Assembly: GCA_007693785.1 (NCBI GenBank)
Contig: RECY01000026.1
Coordinates: 310,001-374,000, forward strand
DNA length: 64,000 bases
From: Phycisphaerales bacterium
GTDB taxonomy: Bacteria > Planctomycetota > Phycisphaerae > Phycisphaerales > UBA1924
Reading direction: 5' to 3'
In this document: one piece after another, positions 4,639 to 57,365 of the stretch
Position numbering within the stretch: position 1 is the first letter of the stretch
Layout of the letters: each line of letters begins with the position of its first letter
Made by a program: the position numbers and the translations under genes
Notes under the pieces: generated by a model
Told to the model about the DNA's origin: nothing
The model's input: only the letters and a program-made list of their open reading frames with translations
Database searches by the model: none

Positions 4639-6234
4639 CTATCGCAGCTTGCGGGTGACGGCGTCCCGGGCGGCTTTCGCGTCGGCCTGCCCGGCGCTGG
4701 CGCGCATCACCGCGGCGATCAGGCGGCCGACCGCTTTATCGTTGCCCGCGCCGAATTCCGAAGCGGCCTGGGGCTCGGCGGCGATCCCCGCGTCGCACCA
4801 CTCGTCGAGCTGCCCGGCGTCGCGGACGGTCAGCATCCCGCCCGCCTCGGCCAGCTCGCGTGGGTGACGCTCGCCCGAGGCGAGGCGCGTCATGAGCTGA
4901 TCGCTCGTCTGGGCGCTCAGCTCGCCTTGCTCGCGCATCGCGCCGAGCTGCCCGAGGTCGTGCGCGTCGAGCCCGAGGGCGTCGAGGGGGACGCCTCGCT
5001 CGTTGGCGAGGCGCGCGCCCGATTGGAGCAAGAGGTTCGCGACGGCTCGCGCGGCGGACTCGGCGCGCGACGCGCCCGTTTCGAGCGCGATCCGTACGGC
5101 CTCGTCGAACAGCGCCGCGAGGGCGGGCTCTTCGCTCAGCGCCAGCGCGGGCTCGCCCTCCAGCCCCAGCTCGCGCGTGTAGCGCTCGAAGCGTGCGCAC
5201 GGCAGCTCCGGGAGCGCGTCGCGCACGCGGTCGCCCCAGGCGCGCGTCAGGCGGATCGGGACCAGGTCGGGGTCGGGAAAGTAGCGGTAATCGTCGGCTT
5301 CTTCCTTGTCGCGCTGCGGGGTGGTACGGGCGCGTTCGTCGTCCCACCCGCGGGTGGTTTTGGTGCCGGGGGCGAAGGCGAGGCCGGTCTCGCGCCAGCG
5401 GTCGGGCTGATCGCGGAGCTCGGCCTCGATGGAGCCGCGGAGGGCTTTGAAGGAGTTGAGGTTCTTCACTTCGACGATCGGCGTGCGCACGGTGCGCCCG
5501 GTGTCGAAGGTCAGCTCGGTGTTGATGTTGGGCTCGAAGCGGATGTGCCCGGCTTCGAGGACGCCCTCGCTTGCGCCCAAGGCGCGGGCGATCGCGCGCA
5601 CGCCGCGTGCGAGGCTGACGGCCTCGTCCGCCGAGACGAGCGTCGGGGCGGTGACGATCTCGAGCAGGGCGGCCCCGGCGCGGTTGAGATCCACGATCAA
5701 GCCGGCGAGGCGCGCGCCCGGGTGCAGGTGCGCCAGCTCCGCGGGGAGCTCGTGCAGCAGCTTGCCCGCGTCCTCCTCCAGGTGCGCGCGCGCGATGGGG
5801 ACTTCGACGACGGCGCCGGTTGGTTTGGCGTGCGCGTCGAGCCGGGGCACGCGGGCGAGCCCGTCGAAGCAGACGGGGAGCCCGAGCTGCGAGATCTGAT
5901 ACCCCTTCGGCAGGTCCGGGTAGGCGTAGCTCTTGCGGTCGAAACGGGTGACCTCCGCGAGGCGGCACCCGAGCGCGAGCCCGACGCCGGCCGCCAGCTC
6001 GATCGCGCGCTCGTTGACCACCGGCAACGCGCCGGGAAGAGCGAGGACCACGGGATCGGTGAGCGTGTTGGGCGCGGCGTCCGCGAAATCCCGGTGGGCC
6101 GGGCTGGGCGCGCTCGCGAAGACCTTCCGGCGCGTCGCGAGCTCGACGTGGATCTCCATGCCGACGATGAGGCGCACCGCGACGATGTTCGCGGCTTCAC
6201 GCTCGGCACGGGTCATCGCGGCGGGATCGGTCAT
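4639..6234 (-). CDS. gatB: Aspartyl/glutamyl-tRNA amidotransferase subunit B
   Basis: GatB binds misacylated Asp-tRNA(Asn) or Glu-tRNA(Gln), phosphorylates the side chain and amidates it with ammonia from GatA. Family marks seen: VRLIVGMEIHVEL near the start, FDRKSYAYPDLPKGYQISQ, HLEEDAGKLLHE, DLNRAGAALLEIVT, EVKNLNSFKALRGSIEAEL and DYRYFPDPDLVPI, then the C-terminal YqeY-like helical domain. 531 residues is somewhat longer than usual because the helical region is extended. gatA and gatC are not in the window, which is common for scattered gat genes. It is the last gene of a minus-strand run after mqnA and the sigma-like gene. It implies that at least one amide tRNA is made indirectly here. 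Confidence 0.96.
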   Translation of the reverse strand: MTDPAAMTRAEREAANIVAVRLIVGMEIHVELATRRKVFASAPSPAHRDFADAAPNTLTDPVVLALPGALPVVNERAIELAAGVGLALGCRLAEVTRFDRKSYAYPDLPKGYQISQLGLPVCFDGLARVPRLDAHAKPTGAVVEVPIARAHLEEDAGKLLHELPAELAHLHPGARLAGLIVDLNRAGAALLEIVTAPTLVSADEAVSLARGVRAIARALGASEGVLEAGHIRFEPNINTELTFDTGRTVRTPIVEVKNLNSFKALRGSIEAELRDQPDRWRETGLAFAPGTKTTRGWDDERARTTPQRDKEEADDYRYFPDPDLVPIRLTRAWGDRVRDALPELPCARFERYTRELGLEGEPALALSEEPALAALFDEAVRIALETGASRAESAARAVANLLLQSGARLANERGVPLDALGLDAHDLGQLGAMREQGELSAQTSDQLMTRLASGERHPRELAEAGGMLTVRDAGQLDEWCDAGIAAEPQAASEFGAGNDKAVGRLIAAVMRASAGQADAKAARDAVTRKLR

Positions 6235-19924: not shown

Positions 19925-21334
19925 TCAAGCCGATCGGGTGGTTGCGGGGTGCGGGCACCAGACGGTGGCGAGCGCGAGGCACGTCGCGCCGATCGCGGCG
20001 GTCTGCGCGTTGATGTGCACGGTGTCGAAAGCGCTGACGAGGGCGAGGCCGACGAGCGCGAGCGCCGGGCCGAGCTCGGTGTATACGCCGTGGGCGAGGA
20101 GTCGCTCGCGCCAAGGGCGGGCGACGGCTTTGGGCCCGTGGCGGGGCGCGATCGCGCCGCGTGCGACGGCGGCGACGAGCGCGAGCGCGAGCAGCAGCCC
20201 GACCGTGCCGGTGGTCGCGCCGACGTGCAGCAGCGTGTGGTGCGCATGGTCGTGCAGGACGGTCGTGCTCGGGTCGTGCCCGGCGGCTCGCATGGCCCGG
20301 GCGCTCGCCTCGCGGAAGCTGCCCGCCCCGAGCCCGAGCACCGGGTGTGCCGCGAAGGTCTCCCCCGCCCAGAGCACCATGAACACGCGCTTGCCGGTGT
20401 CGGTGTCGTAATCCTGCTCCGCGACGGCGGCGCGGACCTCGTCCCGGGCGGCTTCGGCCCGCGCGAGCACCGTCGGCGCCAGCAGCGTCGAGGCGACCGT
20501 CACGACCACCAACCCCAGCGCGCCCAGCACCGCGAGCACCGAGAGCGGCGCGACGCGACGGGCGTGCCAGAGCGCGAGCGCGCCAACCACCAGCGTCAGC
20601 CCGGCCCCGGCGAGCCAACCCCCCCGCGTGCCGGTCGCGAGCAGGGCGATCCAGGTGATCGCGAAGCCGACCGCGCCCAGGGCGCGCCAGCGCCCGCGCC
20701 CGGCGGCGAGCGCGGCCCCGTGCATCCCGAGCGGGACCATCAGGAGCGTGCCGGAGACGGCCGGATCCCACCACCCGCTGTTGCGCCCGGGCTGACGGTT
20801 AAAGGTGAGGGCGGGGAGTTCGAGGGCGAGCCCGACGGCGTGGGCGAGCTGGCTGAGGTGCCCGAGCGCGAAGCCGACGAGCATCGCCGCGACGATCCAC
20901 CCCTTGCGATCGAGCACGGGCCAGAGCAGGAGCGGGACGACCGCGAACCGCGCCTGCCCGAGCTCGCGCCAGCCCTGAGCGCGGTCGGGCGACCAGAGCA
21001 GCGAGATCGCGAGCCAGGCGAACGCGAGGGCGAGGATCAGCATCGCGGGCTGGAGGAGCAGCGCGGGCCAGGTGCGCCAGGTGTTGTTGGCGCGGACGAG
21101 CCAGTACAGCGCGAGGGCGGCGAGGGCGATCTCCATCGCGGAGATGAACGCGCCGAGGCAGAGCGCGAACGCGCCGGCGAGGATCAGGTGCAGGCGTGTG
21201 CCGAGCTCGTCGCGCGCGTGCTGGCGGTCGAAGGCGCGCTGCGCGGCCTCGGTGTCGAGCCACGGCGCGCGGAGGCACGCGAACGGGGCGGCGAGCCCGC
21301 GCGGGCGCGCGATGGGTCGGTCGTCGGGGAGCAT
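19925..21334 (-). CDS. O-antigen ligase family membrane protein (likely independent start inside fused frame)
   Basis: 469 residues if translation starts at the ATG at 21334, which has AGGA nine bases upstream. About a dozen hydrophobic helices (for example LILAGAFALCLGAFISAMEI and GAVGFAITWIALLATGTRGG) enclose the Wzy/WaaL-type region with TGTRGGWLAG and, in the long loop, HPVLGLGAGSFREASARAM and HDHAHHTLLHVG. The family joins or polymerises lipid-linked glycans on the periplasmic side. The TRGG and GLGAGSF motifs are the strongest evidence. Its partner could be any of the glycan genes at 58-63 kb (inference). Confidence 0.85.
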   Translation of the reverse strand: MLPDDRPIARPRGLAAPFACLRAPWLDTEAAQRAFDRQHARDELGTRLHLILAGAFALCLGAFISAMEIALAALALYWLVRANNTWRTWPALLLQPAMLILALAFAWLAISLLWSPDRAQGWRELGQARFAVVPLLLWPVLDRKGWIVAAMLVGFALGHLSQLAHAVGLALELPALTFNRQPGRNSGWWDPAVSGTLLMVPLGMHGAALAAGRGRWRALGAVGFAITWIALLATGTRGGWLAGAGLTLVVGALALWHARRVAPLSVLAVLGALGLVVVTVASTLLAPTVLARAEAARDEVRAAVAEQDYDTDTGKRVFMVLWAGETFAAHPVLGLGAGSFREASARAMRAAGHDPSTTVLHDHAHHTLLHVGATTGTVGLLLALALVAAVARGAIAPRHGPKAVARPWRERLLAHGVYTELGPALALVGLALVSAFDTVHINAQTAAIGATCLALATVWCPHPATTRSA

Positions 21335-24300
21335 GGGCGGGAGATCCTGCCCGCGCCCGCCCCCCGGGGCAAGCCGGGGCGGGGAGAGATCAGCGATCGG
21401 GCGTGCGGTCCGGCGTGCGGGGGGTCGGGGCGTCGGCGGGAGGCTCGGCGGGCGCGTCGGCGGGGGCGGGGCGGCTCTGCGGCTCGCTCTCGGGCAGCAG
21501 GGGGGGGCGGGGCGGCTCTGCGGCTCGCTCTCGGGCAGCAGATCGGGCCCCGTCTCGGGACCGGTCTCGGGCCCCGCTTCGAGCTGGGGTTCGGGGCGGG
21601 GTTCTGGTTTCGACGGCCCGGCGACGGGCGGGGGGTCGGGGATGGGGGCCTGGAGGACGATGGTGTCGTTGCCCGCGGTGAGGAGCAAGCGCCCGTCGAT
21701 CGCGGCGAGCTCGGTGGGGCGTCGGGTGAGGATGACGGTGGCGTGCGCGGCGGCGAGGCGTCCGTCGGGTCGGTGGAAGATGTAGAGGGCGTGCTCGCGG
21801 GCGCCGTCGCCCCGTTCGATCCCGCGCCGGTCGATGGCGGCGTAATAGTCGCGTGTGGCGGCGGGGGTGGTGAGCAGGTCGAAGGTCTCGAGCCCGTCGA
21901 GGCCGAGCAGTTCCCCGTCGGCGTCGGCCGCGATGATCCCGCGCGGGGTGAGCAGCTCGAGCGTGTCGTCGTGGATCAGCGCGCGGAGCCCGTCGCGGAC
22001 GTCGAGGCGTCGATCGACGGGCAGCGGTTGGGCGACGAGTCGCCCGCTTTCGCGTTCGAGGCGTCGGAGCTGGTGCTGCTCGTCGCGGATGTAGACGCTG
22101 GGCCCGACGACCCAGGCGCCGACGGTTCGGATGAGTGCGGCGTCGTTCTGCGACCAGGTGATCCCGTCGGTGCCGAGGGCGAGGACGCCGCCGGTGGCGC
22201 CGATGATGATCTGCCCGTCGCGGGCGACGCGGACCCACCTGGGCCTGGCGCCCTGGAGGTCGTCGCGCCGGAGGCCCCGCCCGGATTCGAGCTCGATCGC
22301 GGCGAAGCGGGGTTGCCCGGTCTGGGCGCGGTCGTCGCCGAGCGTTTCGCCGATGAGCGCGACGACCCCGCCGCCGACGTCGACGTCGTAGACACGCTCG
22401 ACGTGGGTGGTGGCGGTCCATCGCGCTCGCCCGGTGCGCAGGTCGATCGCGGCGACGCGCCCGGAGCGTTCGACCGCGACGAGCTCGTCGGGGATGTCGG
22501 CGATGAGCACGTCGCGGAGGGTCCCGAGCCCGGACATGGGCGTCTGGACCATCCGCGGCCCGTCGAGGCCGGCGATGCGGGCCTCGACGCCGGGGTCGGG
22601 CGGGAAGAGCTCGTGGAAGGGCGGCGTGATCCAGCGTCGCTGCCCGGAGGCGGCGTCGAGGCGTTCGAAGCGTCCCCCGCCCTCGAGCAGCGGGTGGAAG
22701 AGCAGGACGCCGCCCTCGTCGTGGCGGACGACGACCGGCTCGGCATCGGCGGGGTGATGCACGCTCCACGCGGGTTCGAGCTCGCCGCCCGGCCCGACGC
22801 GGAAGAGCCCGATCGCGGGCTCGTCGGTGTTCTGCATGACCACGCGATCGGTCGGGAGCCCGTACCGCTGCCCAGCGATCGGCGGGCGCAGGCGCCAGCC
22901 CTCCAGACGCTGGATATCCGAGGTGACCGACGGCCCGATCCACGCGAGGCGCGGGCCCGAGCCCCCGCCCGCGACGCGGATCCGCTCGAGCAGGGCCGCC
23001 CCCGCGGCGAAGTCCAGCTCCGGGTGGTCGCGTTCGAGCACGCGGAGCAGCCCGGCGGCGTCGGCGAGGCGGGCCTGGGCGTCCAGCGCCGCCAGGCGCT
23101 CGAGCGCCGCGTCGCGCAGCGCGTCGCGGGCGCCGGGGCGGGCGATGGCGGCGTCGAGTTCGGCGGCCTCGAAGGCCCGGGCCCGCGCCGCGTCGGCCGA
23201 CCGCGGGCGACCGGCGCGATCGTGCGCCGAAGCCGCGCGGAGCCACAGCCCCGAGGTCGTCGCCGAAGCCGGGTAGCGGAGCGCCAAACGCTCGATCGCG
23301 CCGGCGGAGGTTTCCGGGCCCATCGCGGCGGCTTCGAGGGCGGCCTCGGCGTCGAACGCCGCGTAGGTCGTCGGCCCGTGCGCGCGCACCAGCTCCCGCA
23401 CCCGGCGGGCGGCCTCGGCGTCGGCACGCACACGCAGACGCAGCCCGCGCCACGTCGCCGAACGCAGCGGGGACTCGCGCAGCACGCGCTGGTACGCCTC
23501 GACCGCGAGCGCAGGCCGCCCCTCCGCCTCACGCTGGCGACCGAGCGCGAACAGGTGCGCCACGCGCTGCTCGGGCGTGTCCGCGGTGCGTCCGGCTCGG
23601 TCCACGATCGACGCCATCAGGCGCAGGTCGCGGATCGACGCCTCGCCCGGATCGGGCGCGTCGCCGGCGTGGATCATCAGCATCAACGCGTCGTGCAGGC
23701 GCGTCCGCGCGACGCTCATCGCGGGTGAGAGCGGGTCGCCCTCGATCGCCGCCAGCGCCCGGTCCACCGCGGGGATGATCCGGTCGTGACGCCCGGCGCG
23801 GAAGGCGAGCTGGGCGAGCGTGACCGCCGGCGCGGGGTCGCCCGGGTCGCGGTCCAGACGGGCCTCGAGCTGCGACGAGGCCGACGACCAGATCGGGTGG
23901 CTCCGCAGGCTGGTGGGCCCGGCGACGAGGAGCTGCCCGTCGGCGGCGAGCGCGTTGCCGGCGTGCTCGAGAGGGGTGAACGACGGGCTCCCGGGGGCCC
24001 CCGGGTCGATGAGCAGGAGCCCGTCGGTCATGGGAATCATGAGCTCGTCGCCCGCGGCGACGGCGCGCCCGGCGACGGTCCGCCCGCGGAGCAGGCCGGC
24101 GGTGAGGGTGACGACGCCATGGGTCACGTCGTTGATGGGGACAAAGGCGGCGCGGTCGGCGCTGACCCCGGCGAGGTGGTCGCCGACGCGGAGGATGTAC
24201 TCGGGCATCGCCATGGTGGCGGCGGGTCGTTCGCCAAGCAGCTCGCCGGTCTCGGTGTGGATCTCGACGATCTGTTCCAGGTTGGGGGTGAGCGCGTAGA

Positions 24301-25888
24301 GGCGGTCGCCGACGACGACGGGGGCGCTGACGGTGAACGGCGGGCTGCTGACGCCGCGACGCGTGGTCTCGGCGACGAAGCGTCGGACCCAGATCGGGCG
24401 TCCGGTGTCGGCGGCGAGGGCGATGATGACGCCGGTGTCGTCGGCGTGATAGACGACGCCCCGGTCGAGGACGGGGGCGGGGGTGGCGCGTGTGCCGCTG
24501 GAGAAGGGCATCGCGCCGGTGGAGGCCGCGAGGCGGACCCAGCGGGTCTCGCCGGTCCAGAGGTCGAGCCCGACGAGGTAGGTGGAGACCAGGCGTCGGG
24601 CCTGGACGAACTTGCGCGCAACGACGATCGCGGTGTCGCCGGAGACGACGATGGGCCCTCGGGGGACGGCGTAGACGAGCTCGGGCGAGGCCGAGGCGAT
24701 GGCCCGCGACCAGAGCACGCGCCCGGTGCGCGTGTCGATCGCGTGGACGCGGGGGTCGCCGTCGCGCCCTTCGTTATAGCTGATGCCGGTGGCGGCGAGC
24801 GCGAGGGCGCCGGCGATGGTGACGGTGTTGCTGTCGCCCGGGGGTCGCGGGCCGCCGGGTCGGAAGTTGGTGAGGTTGCCGAGGTCGCGTTCGTTGGCGA
24901 TCTCGCCCCTGGTGAGGGGTTCGGGCTCGGCGCGCCAGATGGGTTCGAGGGTGAAGCGGTCCCACGCGGAGACGGTGCGCCCGTCGTTGACGTAGACGAC
25001 GTCGCCGACGACGGTGGGGAAGACCCAGGATGTGGCTTCGCGCATCGCCTGTCGTTCGCGTTCGGTGCGCCCTTCGAGGACTTCGTCGGTGCCGGCGGGG
25101 GAGGTGGGGACGCTGGACATCGCGCTCGCGAGCAGGTCGGGGGTGTCGAGCGGGCTGTTGACGGTGAGCGGCGAGGTCGCGAGCGTGCGCGAGGCGGGGG
25201 GGTGCTCGACGCGGGCCGGGGCGGCGGTGTCCTCGAGCCCGCCCTCGGCGCGCCATCGCTCGGCGAGGGCGCGGAGGGGGGCGTCGTCGGTGTATCGGGT
25301 CAGCGTCGTCGCGAGGCGGGCCGCCGAGCGGGCGCGGACCGAGCCGGGCGTTCGGTCCGGGTGCCGGTCGAGCTGGCGAAGGGTCATGCGGGCGGCGTCG
25401 AACGAGGCCGACTCCATCTCCAACTGGGCGACACGGAGGGCGGCGTCGAACCCCGCGGGCGTCAGCAGGTGGCGACGCTCGACCTCGCCCGCCTCGCCGG
25501 CTTCCAGCGCGCGGGCGGCGGACGCCCCTTCCACCTGGCGGTAGCGGTCCAGCAACTCGCGGTCGGCGAGCAACGCCGCGTGGACGCGCGTCCGCACCGC
25601 GAGATAGAGCGAAGGATCGGCATCGGTCGCGATCAGGCGCTCGGCCGATTCGTCGAGCATCGCCTGCAGCGCGCGCACGGCCTCGGCGACGTTGCCCGCC
25701 TCCACCAGCGCGGGCACCCGCGCGAGCGCGTCGCCCGCACGCGGCGTCTCGTCCACGTACACCGGGTTGTCCGCCTGCCCGAACGACCAAGGGGCCGCCC
25801 CCAGGACGCACGCGAGCGACGCGAGCCAGAGCGGGGCGGCGTGTGCCGCACCGATTCTCCGACCCCGCCGACCGATCTGACGAGCCAT
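19925..25888 (-). CDS. Fused frame: secreted PQQ-like beta-propeller/TPR protein joined to O-antigen ligase
   Basis: One uninterrupted frame of 1987 codons. Residues 1-38 are a signal peptide. About 40-200 are helical; about 280-640 and 1030-1440 are two PQQ/WD-like beta-propellers (repeated blocks such as VHAIDTRTGRVLWSRAI and AAIDLRTGRARWTATTH); helical TPR-like repeats lie between. From about 1519 on it is an O-antigen ligase/polymerase with many membrane helices. The join passes through a 41-bp tandem duplication (21460-21541) and about 45 residues of low-complexity text that read like an off-frame shadow. With one copy removed the propeller frame would instead end at 21390. I therefore think this was two genes; the fusion may be recent or an assembly artefact. 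Confidence 0.75.
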   Translation of the reverse strand: MARQIGRRGRRIGAAHAAPLWLASLACVLGAAPWSFGQADNPVYVDETPRAGDALARVPALVEAGNVAEAVRALQAMLDESAERLIATDADPSLYLAVRTRVHAALLADRELLDRYRQVEGASAARALEAGEAGEVERRHLLTPAGFDAALRVAQLEMESASFDAARMTLRQLDRHPDRTPGSVRARSAARLATTLTRYTDDAPLRALAERWRAEGGLEDTAAPARVEHPPASRTLATSPLTVNSPLDTPDLLASAMSSVPTSPAGTDEVLEGRTERERQAMREATSWVFPTVVGDVVYVNDGRTVSAWDRFTLEPIWRAEPEPLTRGEIANERDLGNLTNFRPGGPRPPGDSNTVTIAGALALAATGISYNEGRDGDPRVHAIDTRTGRVLWSRAIASASPELVYAVPRGPIVVSGDTAIVVARKFVQARRLVSTYLVGLDLWTGETRWVRLAASTGAMPFSSGTRATPAPVLDRGVVYHADDTGVIIALAADTGRPIWVRRFVAETTRRGVSSPPFTVSAPVVVGDRLYALTPNLEQIVEIHTETGELLGERPAATMAMPEYILRVGDHLAGVSADRAAFVPINDVTHGVVTLTAGLLRGRTVAGRAVAAGDELMIPMTDGLLLIDPGAPGSPSFTPLEHAGNALAADGQLLVAGPTSLRSHPIWSSASSQLEARLDRDPGDPAPAVTLAQLAFRAGRHDRIIPAVDRALAAIEGDPLSPAMSVARTRLHDALMLMIHAGDAPDPGEASIRDLRLMASIVDRAGRTADTPEQRVAHLFALGRQREAEGRPALAVEAYQRVLRESPLRSATWRGLRLRVRADAEAARRVRELVRAHGPTTYAAFDAEAALEAAAMGPETSAGAIERLALRYPASATTSGLWLRAASAHDRAGRPRSADAARARAFEAAELDAAIARPGARDALRDAALERLAALDAQARLADAAGLLRVLERDHPELDFAAGAALLERIRVAGGGSGPRLAWIGPSVTSDIQRLEGWRLRPPIAGQRYGLPTDRVVMQNTDEPAIGLFRVGPGGELEPAWSVHHPADAEPVVVRHDEGGVLLFHPLLEGGGRFERLDAASGQRRWITPPFHELFPPDPGVEARIAGLDGPRMVQTPMSGLGTLRDVLIADIPDELVAVERSGRVAAIDLRTGRARWTATTHVERVYDVDVGGGVVALIGETLGDDRAQTGQPRFAAIELESGRGLRRDDLQGARPRWVRVARDGQIIIGATGGVLALGTDGITWSQNDAALIRTVGAWVVGPSVYIRDEQHQLRRLERESGRLVAQPLPVDRRLDVRDGLRALIHDDTLELLTPRGIIAADADGELLGLDGLETFDLLTTPAATRDYYAAIDRRGIERGDGAREHALYIFHRPDGRLAAAHATVILTRRPTELAAIDGRLLLTAGNDTIVLQAPIPDPPPVAGPSKPEPRPEPQLEAGPETGPETGPDLLPESEPQSRPAPPCCPRASRRAAPPPPTRPPSLPPTPRPPARRTARPIADLSPPRLAPGGGRGQDLPPMLPDDRPIARPRGLAAPFACLRAPWLDTEAAQRAFDRQHARDELGTRLHLILAGAFALCLGAFISAMEIALAALALYWLVRANNTWRTWPALLLQPAMLILALAFAWLAISLLWSPDRAQGWRELGQARFAVVPLLLWPVLDRKGWIVAAMLVGFALGHLSQLAHAVGLALELPALTFNRQPGRNSGWWDPAVSGTLLMVPLGMHGAALAAGRGRWRALGAVGFAITWIALLATGTRGGWLAGAGLTLVVGALALWHARRVAPLSVLAVLGALGLVVVTVASTLLAPTVLARAEAARDEVRAAVAEQDYDTDTGKRVFMVLWAGETFAAHPVLGLGAGSFREASARAMRAAGHDPSTTVLHDHAHHTLLHVGATTGTVGLLLALALVAAVARGAIAPRHGPKAVARPWRERLLAHGVYTELGPALALVGLALVSAFDTVHINAQTAAIGATCLALATVWCPHPATTRSA
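21460..21541. repeat. 41-bp tandem duplication altering a reading frame
   Basis: Copies 21460-21500 and 21501-21541 differ at one base (C to G, creating an eight-G run). Because 41 is not a multiple of three, both copies encode LLPESEPQSRPAP but in frames two bases apart, linking the propeller frame to the O-antigen ligase frame. Confidence 0.9.
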
Positions 25889-26175: not shown

Positions 26176-26700
26176 ATGATGCGGTTGCTCCGTTCTCTGA
26201 CCCGGGCCGCGATCCTGAACCCGTCGATGGGCGGAGCGGGGGTGGCGAGCCCCTCCCGGGTGTCCCTGGGCGGGCTGTGGACGCGACGGTTGGGGCTGGA
26301 GCCGACCGATCCCGGGGCCCTGCGACGGGGGCGGCGGGTGGCGTTGCTGCTTCTGGCGGTCGGGTTGCTCAGTCTCGGCGACCTGGCGTTGACGATGACA
26401 TTCTTGGTCCACACGGGCATGGCTGAGGGAAATCCCCTGGCGAGGGCGGTCATCGGGTACAACTCGGCGGCCGTGCTGGTGTTCTGGAAGCTCTCAACGG
26501 TGGTGTGCACGCTCGCGATCCTGTTCGCGCTGCGTCGCCGGGTGTCGGGGGAGCTGGGGGCGTGGGTGTGCGTCGCGGTGCTGTCGTGGCTGACCTTCCA
26601 CTGGCAGGCGTATATCGCGCAGCAGGACTCGGTGACGGCGTGCGTCGCGGTCGAGCGGGCCGAGTGGGACGCCCGGTGGGTGCGGTTGTCGGCTCAGTAA
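26176..26700 (+). CDS. DUF5658-like small membrane protein
   Basis: 174 residues. Basic cytoplasmic N-terminus, then three or four hydrophobic segments: VALLLLAVGLLSLGDLALTMTFLV, AVLVFWKLSTVVCTLAILFAL and AWVCVAVLSWLTFHW. The pattern of D-x-x-x-T near helix 1 followed by GMAEGNPLA (a helix with acidic residue followed by E-x-NP) matches the DUF5658 family of unknown function. Start could be ATG 26176 or 26179. It stands alone, 287 bp from the divergent propeller gene. That space holds no gene I can support. Function unknown. Confidence 0.7.
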   Translation: MMRLLRSLTRAAILNPSMGGAGVASPSRVSLGGLWTRRLGLEPTDPGALRRGRRVALLLLAVGLLSLGDLALTMTFLVHTGMAEGNPLARAVIGYNSAAVLVFWKLSTVVCTLAILFALRRRVSGELGAWVCVAVLSWLTFHWQAYIAQQDSVTACVAVERAEWDARWVRLSAQ

Positions 26701-55233: not shown

Positions 55234-55327
55234 CACAGCTCGGAGAGCTGTGGGCTTCGGGAAGAGACACAGCTCGGAGAGCTGTGCCACCCGGGGCCGG
55301 GGAAGAGGCACAACTCGGAGAGCCGTG
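55234..55327. repeat. Three copies of a short palindromic repeat
   Basis: The palindrome CACAGCTC-GGA-GAGCTGTG occurs at 55234-55252 and 55268-55286, and a variant (CACAACTC-GGA-GAGCCGTG) at 55309-55327. Copies 2 and 3 share flanks GGGAAGAG and CCACCC. It fills the 167-bp gap between divergent starts. REP-like. Confidence 0.85.
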
Positions 55328-55353
55328 CCACCCGGGCACCTACCATCTCCCAC

Positions 55354-57324: not shown

Positions 57325-57365
57325 AGTGGTCCCGGACGTGCGGGGGGGTTTTGAGAGGACGTGGG

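Follow-up and report, generated by a model that had tools for sequence, protein, structure and literature searches.

A short tandem repeat blurs the boundary between a propeller gene and an O-antigen ligase gene in a Phycisphaerales bacterium

In the genome of a Phycisphaerales bacterium, two minus-strand genes, one for an exported propeller and the other for a WaaL-type O-antigen ligase, are joined on paper by a short tandem repeat, and the single long frame that results most likely reflects a recent or artefactual frame slip rather than a new fusion protein. The window analysed, a stretch of 64,000 nucleotides, covers positions 310001-374000 of contig C13 in an assembly of 45 contigs (3.06 Mb, 95.5% complete). 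The reading that we favour, with a probability of roughly 0.58, is that a real and recent tandem duplication has blurred the boundary within a two-gene operon. An exported propeller with a disordered Pro-rich tail would be encoded first and a ligase, starting at its own ATG at 21334, second. In this genome or clone, a very recent, possibly strain-level tandem duplication within the low-complexity propeller tail would have added 39 bases and two extra Gs, which can equally be described as 41 bases of which one has changed. The stop at 21390 would have been lost to the shifted frame, which would enter the ligase frame by a 1-in-3 chance; the ligase would probably still be made from its own ATG, and the read-through product would not be a working fusion.

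Anatomy of the repeat

The repeat is built from an exact 39-base unit that occurs twice, at 21462-21500 and 21503-21541, with GG between the copies and hence a period of 41; this arrangement is borne out by the sequence itself, by Tandem Repeats Finder and by a base-by-base check. In the base-by-base check, each base equals the one 41 positions further on over exactly 39 consecutive positions starting at 21462. The copies thus have the near-perfect, head-to-tail form of a recent tandem duplication and differ at none of the 39 bases (39/39), synonymous sites included. When the comparison is widened to 21460-21500 against 21501-21541, the sole mismatch is C at 21461 against G at 21502, in agreement with the original prediction of two copies identical except for one base. 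The eight-G run that it had noticed nearby is located at 21500-21507 and includes the intervening GG (21501-21502).

The exact unit can be refined to 39 bases, or 13 codons (LLPESEPQSRPAP, minus strand, propeller frame), so that the two copies are in frame with one another as coding units and the frame is broken by the two extra bases in the eight-G run. By the base-by-base and frame checks, the minus-strand copy at 21503-21541 lies in the propeller frame; the one nearer the ligase, at 21462-21500 on the same strand, falls outside the upstream propeller frame as assembled. Two histories are equally parsimonious and would fit the sequence equally well, namely a 39-base in-frame duplication with a 2-base change in the G run, or a 41-base duplication with one C-to-G change. 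The unit has no other occurrence in the 3.06-Mb assembly. In 738 kb sampled from the genome for tandem duplications with a period of 20-120 and at least 30 exact matches, it is the sole near-complete exact one, and it is well beyond chance expectation.

Reading frames across the junction

As assembled, the ATG-initiated frame occupies 19925-25888 on the minus strand and comprises 1987 codons; that it passes 21390 and enters the ligase, as originally reported, is correct, since 41 inserted bases do not make up whole codons and the 21390 stop is therefore bypassed. The outcome depends on the repeat and on the length of the G run. With the eight Gs of the assembly the propeller continues as ...RPAPPCCPRASRRAAPPP... 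across the ATG at 21334 into the ligase to give 1987 aa, with a linker that includes ...PQSRPAPPCCPR... in the fused frame. With a single copy, the propeller stops at 21390 after 1485 aa and its C-terminus reads ...RPAPADAPAEPPADAPTPRTPDRTPDR; 6 or 9 Gs in the run (period 39 or 42) lead to the same stop after 1498 or 1499 aa; and a G run of 7 or 10 terminates the propeller after about 1567 aa. The C-terminal peptide of the separately terminated propeller is ...PTPRTPDRTPDR.

Codon usage beyond the junction still fits the frame that stops at 21390. Scored against codon usage learned from 137 long ORFs on the contig, the second copy (21462-21500) has a log-odds of +5.3 in the 21390-stop frame versus -6.4 in the fused frame, and 21393-21461 has +1.8 versus -6.0; both stretches are short, and the second figure is weak when taken alone. 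These negative scores accord with the earlier impression that the linker looks like off-frame text, and the coding signature that a natural gene fusion would carry is absent from the linker in the fused frame. That the linker is open at all is unremarkable, as the probability that a random frame of the same composition contains no stop over 56 codons is about 0.66, and the chance that a shifted frame coincides with that of the ligase is 1/3. Frame check and codon scores place the Pro/Glu/Ala-rich tail of the propeller at 21390-21643 (minus strand), where it would end at the 21390 stop in the one-copy or the 39/42-period reading; it is disordered and of low complexity. The sequence and the codon scores likewise mark 21335-21389 (minus strand) as a probable spacer from the propeller stop to the start of the ligase, whose ATG is preceded by AGGA. 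The preferred annotation is of two genes, a propeller ending at 21390 in the unshifted reading and a ligase at 19925-21334.

The two encoded proteins

The product of 19925-21334 (minus strand, 469 aa from its own ATG) is, to judge from profile and predicted fold, a separate O-antigen ligase of the WaaL type. A Wzy_C domain (PF04932; 5.6e-17) is found at residues 1741-1901 of the fused frame, and a profile search reaches WaaL 7TPG at 3.9e-20 and, with a weaker hit, the oligosaccharyltransferase 9RMK. The model built from the ATG at 21334 is confident (mean pLDDT 88.4), and in a Foldseek search with this model 7TPG gave the only convincing score (E 3.1e-8, prob 1.00, TMt 0.72). Conserved Arg and His motifs align with those of 7TPG, RnSgWW with RPSAW and AHNall with AHNDIV. 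The likeness to WaaL (PF04932; 7TPG) in sequence profile and predicted fold extends over nearly the entire ligase part; unlike 7TPG, to which its identity is about 20%, the ligase here continues, on paper, the frame of a propeller upstream of it. The ligase homology mostly begins close to the ATG at 21334.

The conserved core of the propeller, 1415 aa encoded at 21644-25888 on the minus strand, is that of an exported BamB/PQQ-like beta-propeller (Pfam PQQ_2, 3.9e-21). It shares the propeller repeats and a hydrophobic signal segment at the N-terminus with BamB and other PQQ-like beta-propellers (PF13360); unlike BamB, it has a 1415-residue core and scores 38.6 bits against the curated BamB equivalog, far under the cut-off of 285.2, which places it outside that family. 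The propeller belongs to a family of its own that is widespread in Phycisphaerales and is accompanied by a divergent DUF5658 gene; its named relatives are from Phycisphaerales and Phycisphaeraceae MAGs of the Planctomycetota. In the window, the divergent DUF5658 gene lies at 26176-26700 (plus strand) beside the propeller core. The two form a conserved pair, as such a gene flanks 86 of 89 propeller loci across the Phycisphaerales.

WaaL ligases have an established cytoplasmic N-terminus, and a Sec-exported domain at the N-terminus conflicts with this topology; placed ahead of the ligase, an exported propeller would be expected to reverse or prevent its insertion, which makes a working fusion unlikely. 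Were the 41-base state fixed, the cell might at least produce the fused protein.

Comparison with related genomes

Searches of 163 genomes of the same family with each protein as query (E <= 1e-60 for the propeller, 1e-30 for the ligase) recovered the propeller in 150 and the ligase in 110 of them. By the listed coordinates, this genome alone has the two genes side by side, and no other of the 163 does; the nearest other propeller-ligase pairs are about 5-9 kb apart (genomes G125, G122, G123 and G023), whereas in most cases the genes lie on separate contigs or at a great distance from each other. No ligase was found in the 1.5-3 kb flanks of the propeller loci that were fetched, nor was a repeat or G tract found at the same position in the propeller loci examined from relatives. 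Because neither the fusion nor the adjacency was found in relatives, both appear peculiar to the present genome. The idea of a functional natural gene fusion, one of the readings originally proposed, loses its footing here: a natural fusion should be conserved in related genomes, and comparison of the locus, which had been suggested as a check with relatives that all carry the fused gene as one possible outcome, uncovered no relative in which the genes are fused or even adjacent. The ligase was also considered as a conserved operon partner of the propeller; this was rejected, as no ligase flanks the propeller of any relative and the conserved neighbour is the divergent DUF5658 gene.

The position of the propeller stop could be read at 83 loci, a set in which some genomes are present in both collections. 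It ranges from 5 residues before to 53 after query residue 1415 and lies within 17 residues in 74 of the 83, and nine of the loci have Pro/Glu-rich tails (31-53 aa) comparable to the present one. Identity in the propeller is only about 40% even with the nearest relatives, none of which belongs to the same genus, so that the one-copy allele is not directly observed.

Origin of the frame shift

We infer that the duplication is real DNA. The strongest competing explanation, possible though rather doubtful, is an assembly or consensus error: the repeat unit would in truth be single, or double but with 6 or 9 Gs in the run, and the propeller would stop at 21390. Such an error might have arisen where overlapping ends were joined or the G tract was miscounted, in a region of 83% G+C. 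It would agree with the solitary standing of the repeat in the 738 kb sampled and with its ends, which form 39 exact bases plus GG instead of a clean 41-base duplication, and either a single copy or a run of 6 or 9 Gs brings the propeller to the stop that its relatives would predict. Long poly-C/poly-G tracts also occur by G+C-rich hairpins on other contigs, at the end of C8 (L081), at the starts of C14 (L082) and C17 (L083) and at C5:6946-6970 (L080); the hairpins belong to a dispersed repeat (..CTCGGCACCTCCCCCGCCGGGGCGGGGGAGG..), and the tracts look like sequencing or assembly artefacts. Against an error, a miscounted G run cannot account for a 39-base copy, the 385-kb contig is free of N, and on this contig the frame is kept in 23 of 24 cases in which a G/C run of at least 7 has clear coding on both sides, the lone exception (window position 57342) sitting between two called genes. 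Two broader faults were considered and rejected, a general k-mer assembly artefact because the sampled sequence holds no other near-complete tandem duplication, and homopolymer miscalls as a general fault because runs of at least 7 keep frame inside genes.

It is improbable that the repeat serves as a phase-variable switch, in which a change between one and two copies, or slippage of the G8 tract, would toggle between separate genes and a fused or mis-terminated product and so modulate ligase output or the propeller tail. Eight Gs is a typical length for a contingency tract, and the run-length variants described above yield three different C-termini. Short repeats of comparable size do gain and lose copies in real populations; in M. 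tuberculosis promoters, tandem repeats such as those with a 57-bp unit vary at a rate of 10^-2 to 10^-3 per chromosome (PMC12817950). Such a switch is opposed by the lack of a conserved repeat or tract at this position in relatives, all of other genera, by the presence of only two copies, by a fused state without evident use and by G/C runs of at least 8 at 15 other places on the contig, several of them inside genes that keep their frame. Still less credible is its more specific form, in which a Phycisphaerales cell would switch surface-glycan ligation by stop bypass, a reversible slip in the tail (of the copies or the G8 run) alternating between a separate ligase and a read-through fusion; a search of the literature on ligase phase variation found nothing relevant.

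A genuine, selected fusion, i.e. a 1987-residue protein that tethers a periplasmic propeller to O-antigen ligation, is barely plausible: no stop interrupts the assembled frame from one end to the other and the two neighbouring genes point the same way, but the 163 relatives, the off-frame linker, the ease with which such a linker stays open and the topology conflict all speak against it. Of the three readings first put forward (fusion, phase switch or artefact), the functional fusion has not stood; the accompanying frame arithmetic and the remark on an off-frame linker have.

Relation to known tandem repeats

With nearly identical copies, some tens of bases long and arranged head to tail, the repeat resembles short tandem duplications and VNTRs of G+C-rich genomes, such as the pe/ppe indels and 57-bp promoter repeats of M. 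tuberculosis (PMC12817950), and it shares with them a susceptibility to slippage and assembly error; of the structural differences seen relative to an older reference, about half are ascribed to errors in that reference (PMC12817950). Unlike the M. tuberculosis cases, it comprises two copies in the 3' coding tail of a gene, is offset by 2 bases so that the frame shifts into the following gene, and is known from one assembly. The case illustrates neatly how a small repeat within a disordered tail can lead automatic annotation to call a spurious two-domain protein. If retained, the 1987-aa fusion would mislead by inviting the conclusion that a periplasmic propeller acts with O-antigen ligation. 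Biological importance would attach to the allele only if it were polymorphic in reads.

Several other repeats were encountered. A second period-41 array, at 55259-55336 of the window, is built on a palindromic CAGCTCGGAGAGCTG motif; a link with the repeat at 21462-21541 was rejected because this array is intergenic, diverged (91% identical) and unrelated in sequence, and the shared period looks like coincidence. Repeats with a period of 102 occur in the same genome at C13:9136, C13:144934 and C13:374032, with units such as GACATCACCGGGCCCGCGCTCGACGGCGTCCCC, and are possibly dockerin-like or other duplicated domain repeats. In one relative (locus L019, from position 5867 onward), a near-perfect, partly palindromic tandem repeat of 107 bp directly follows the propeller gene.
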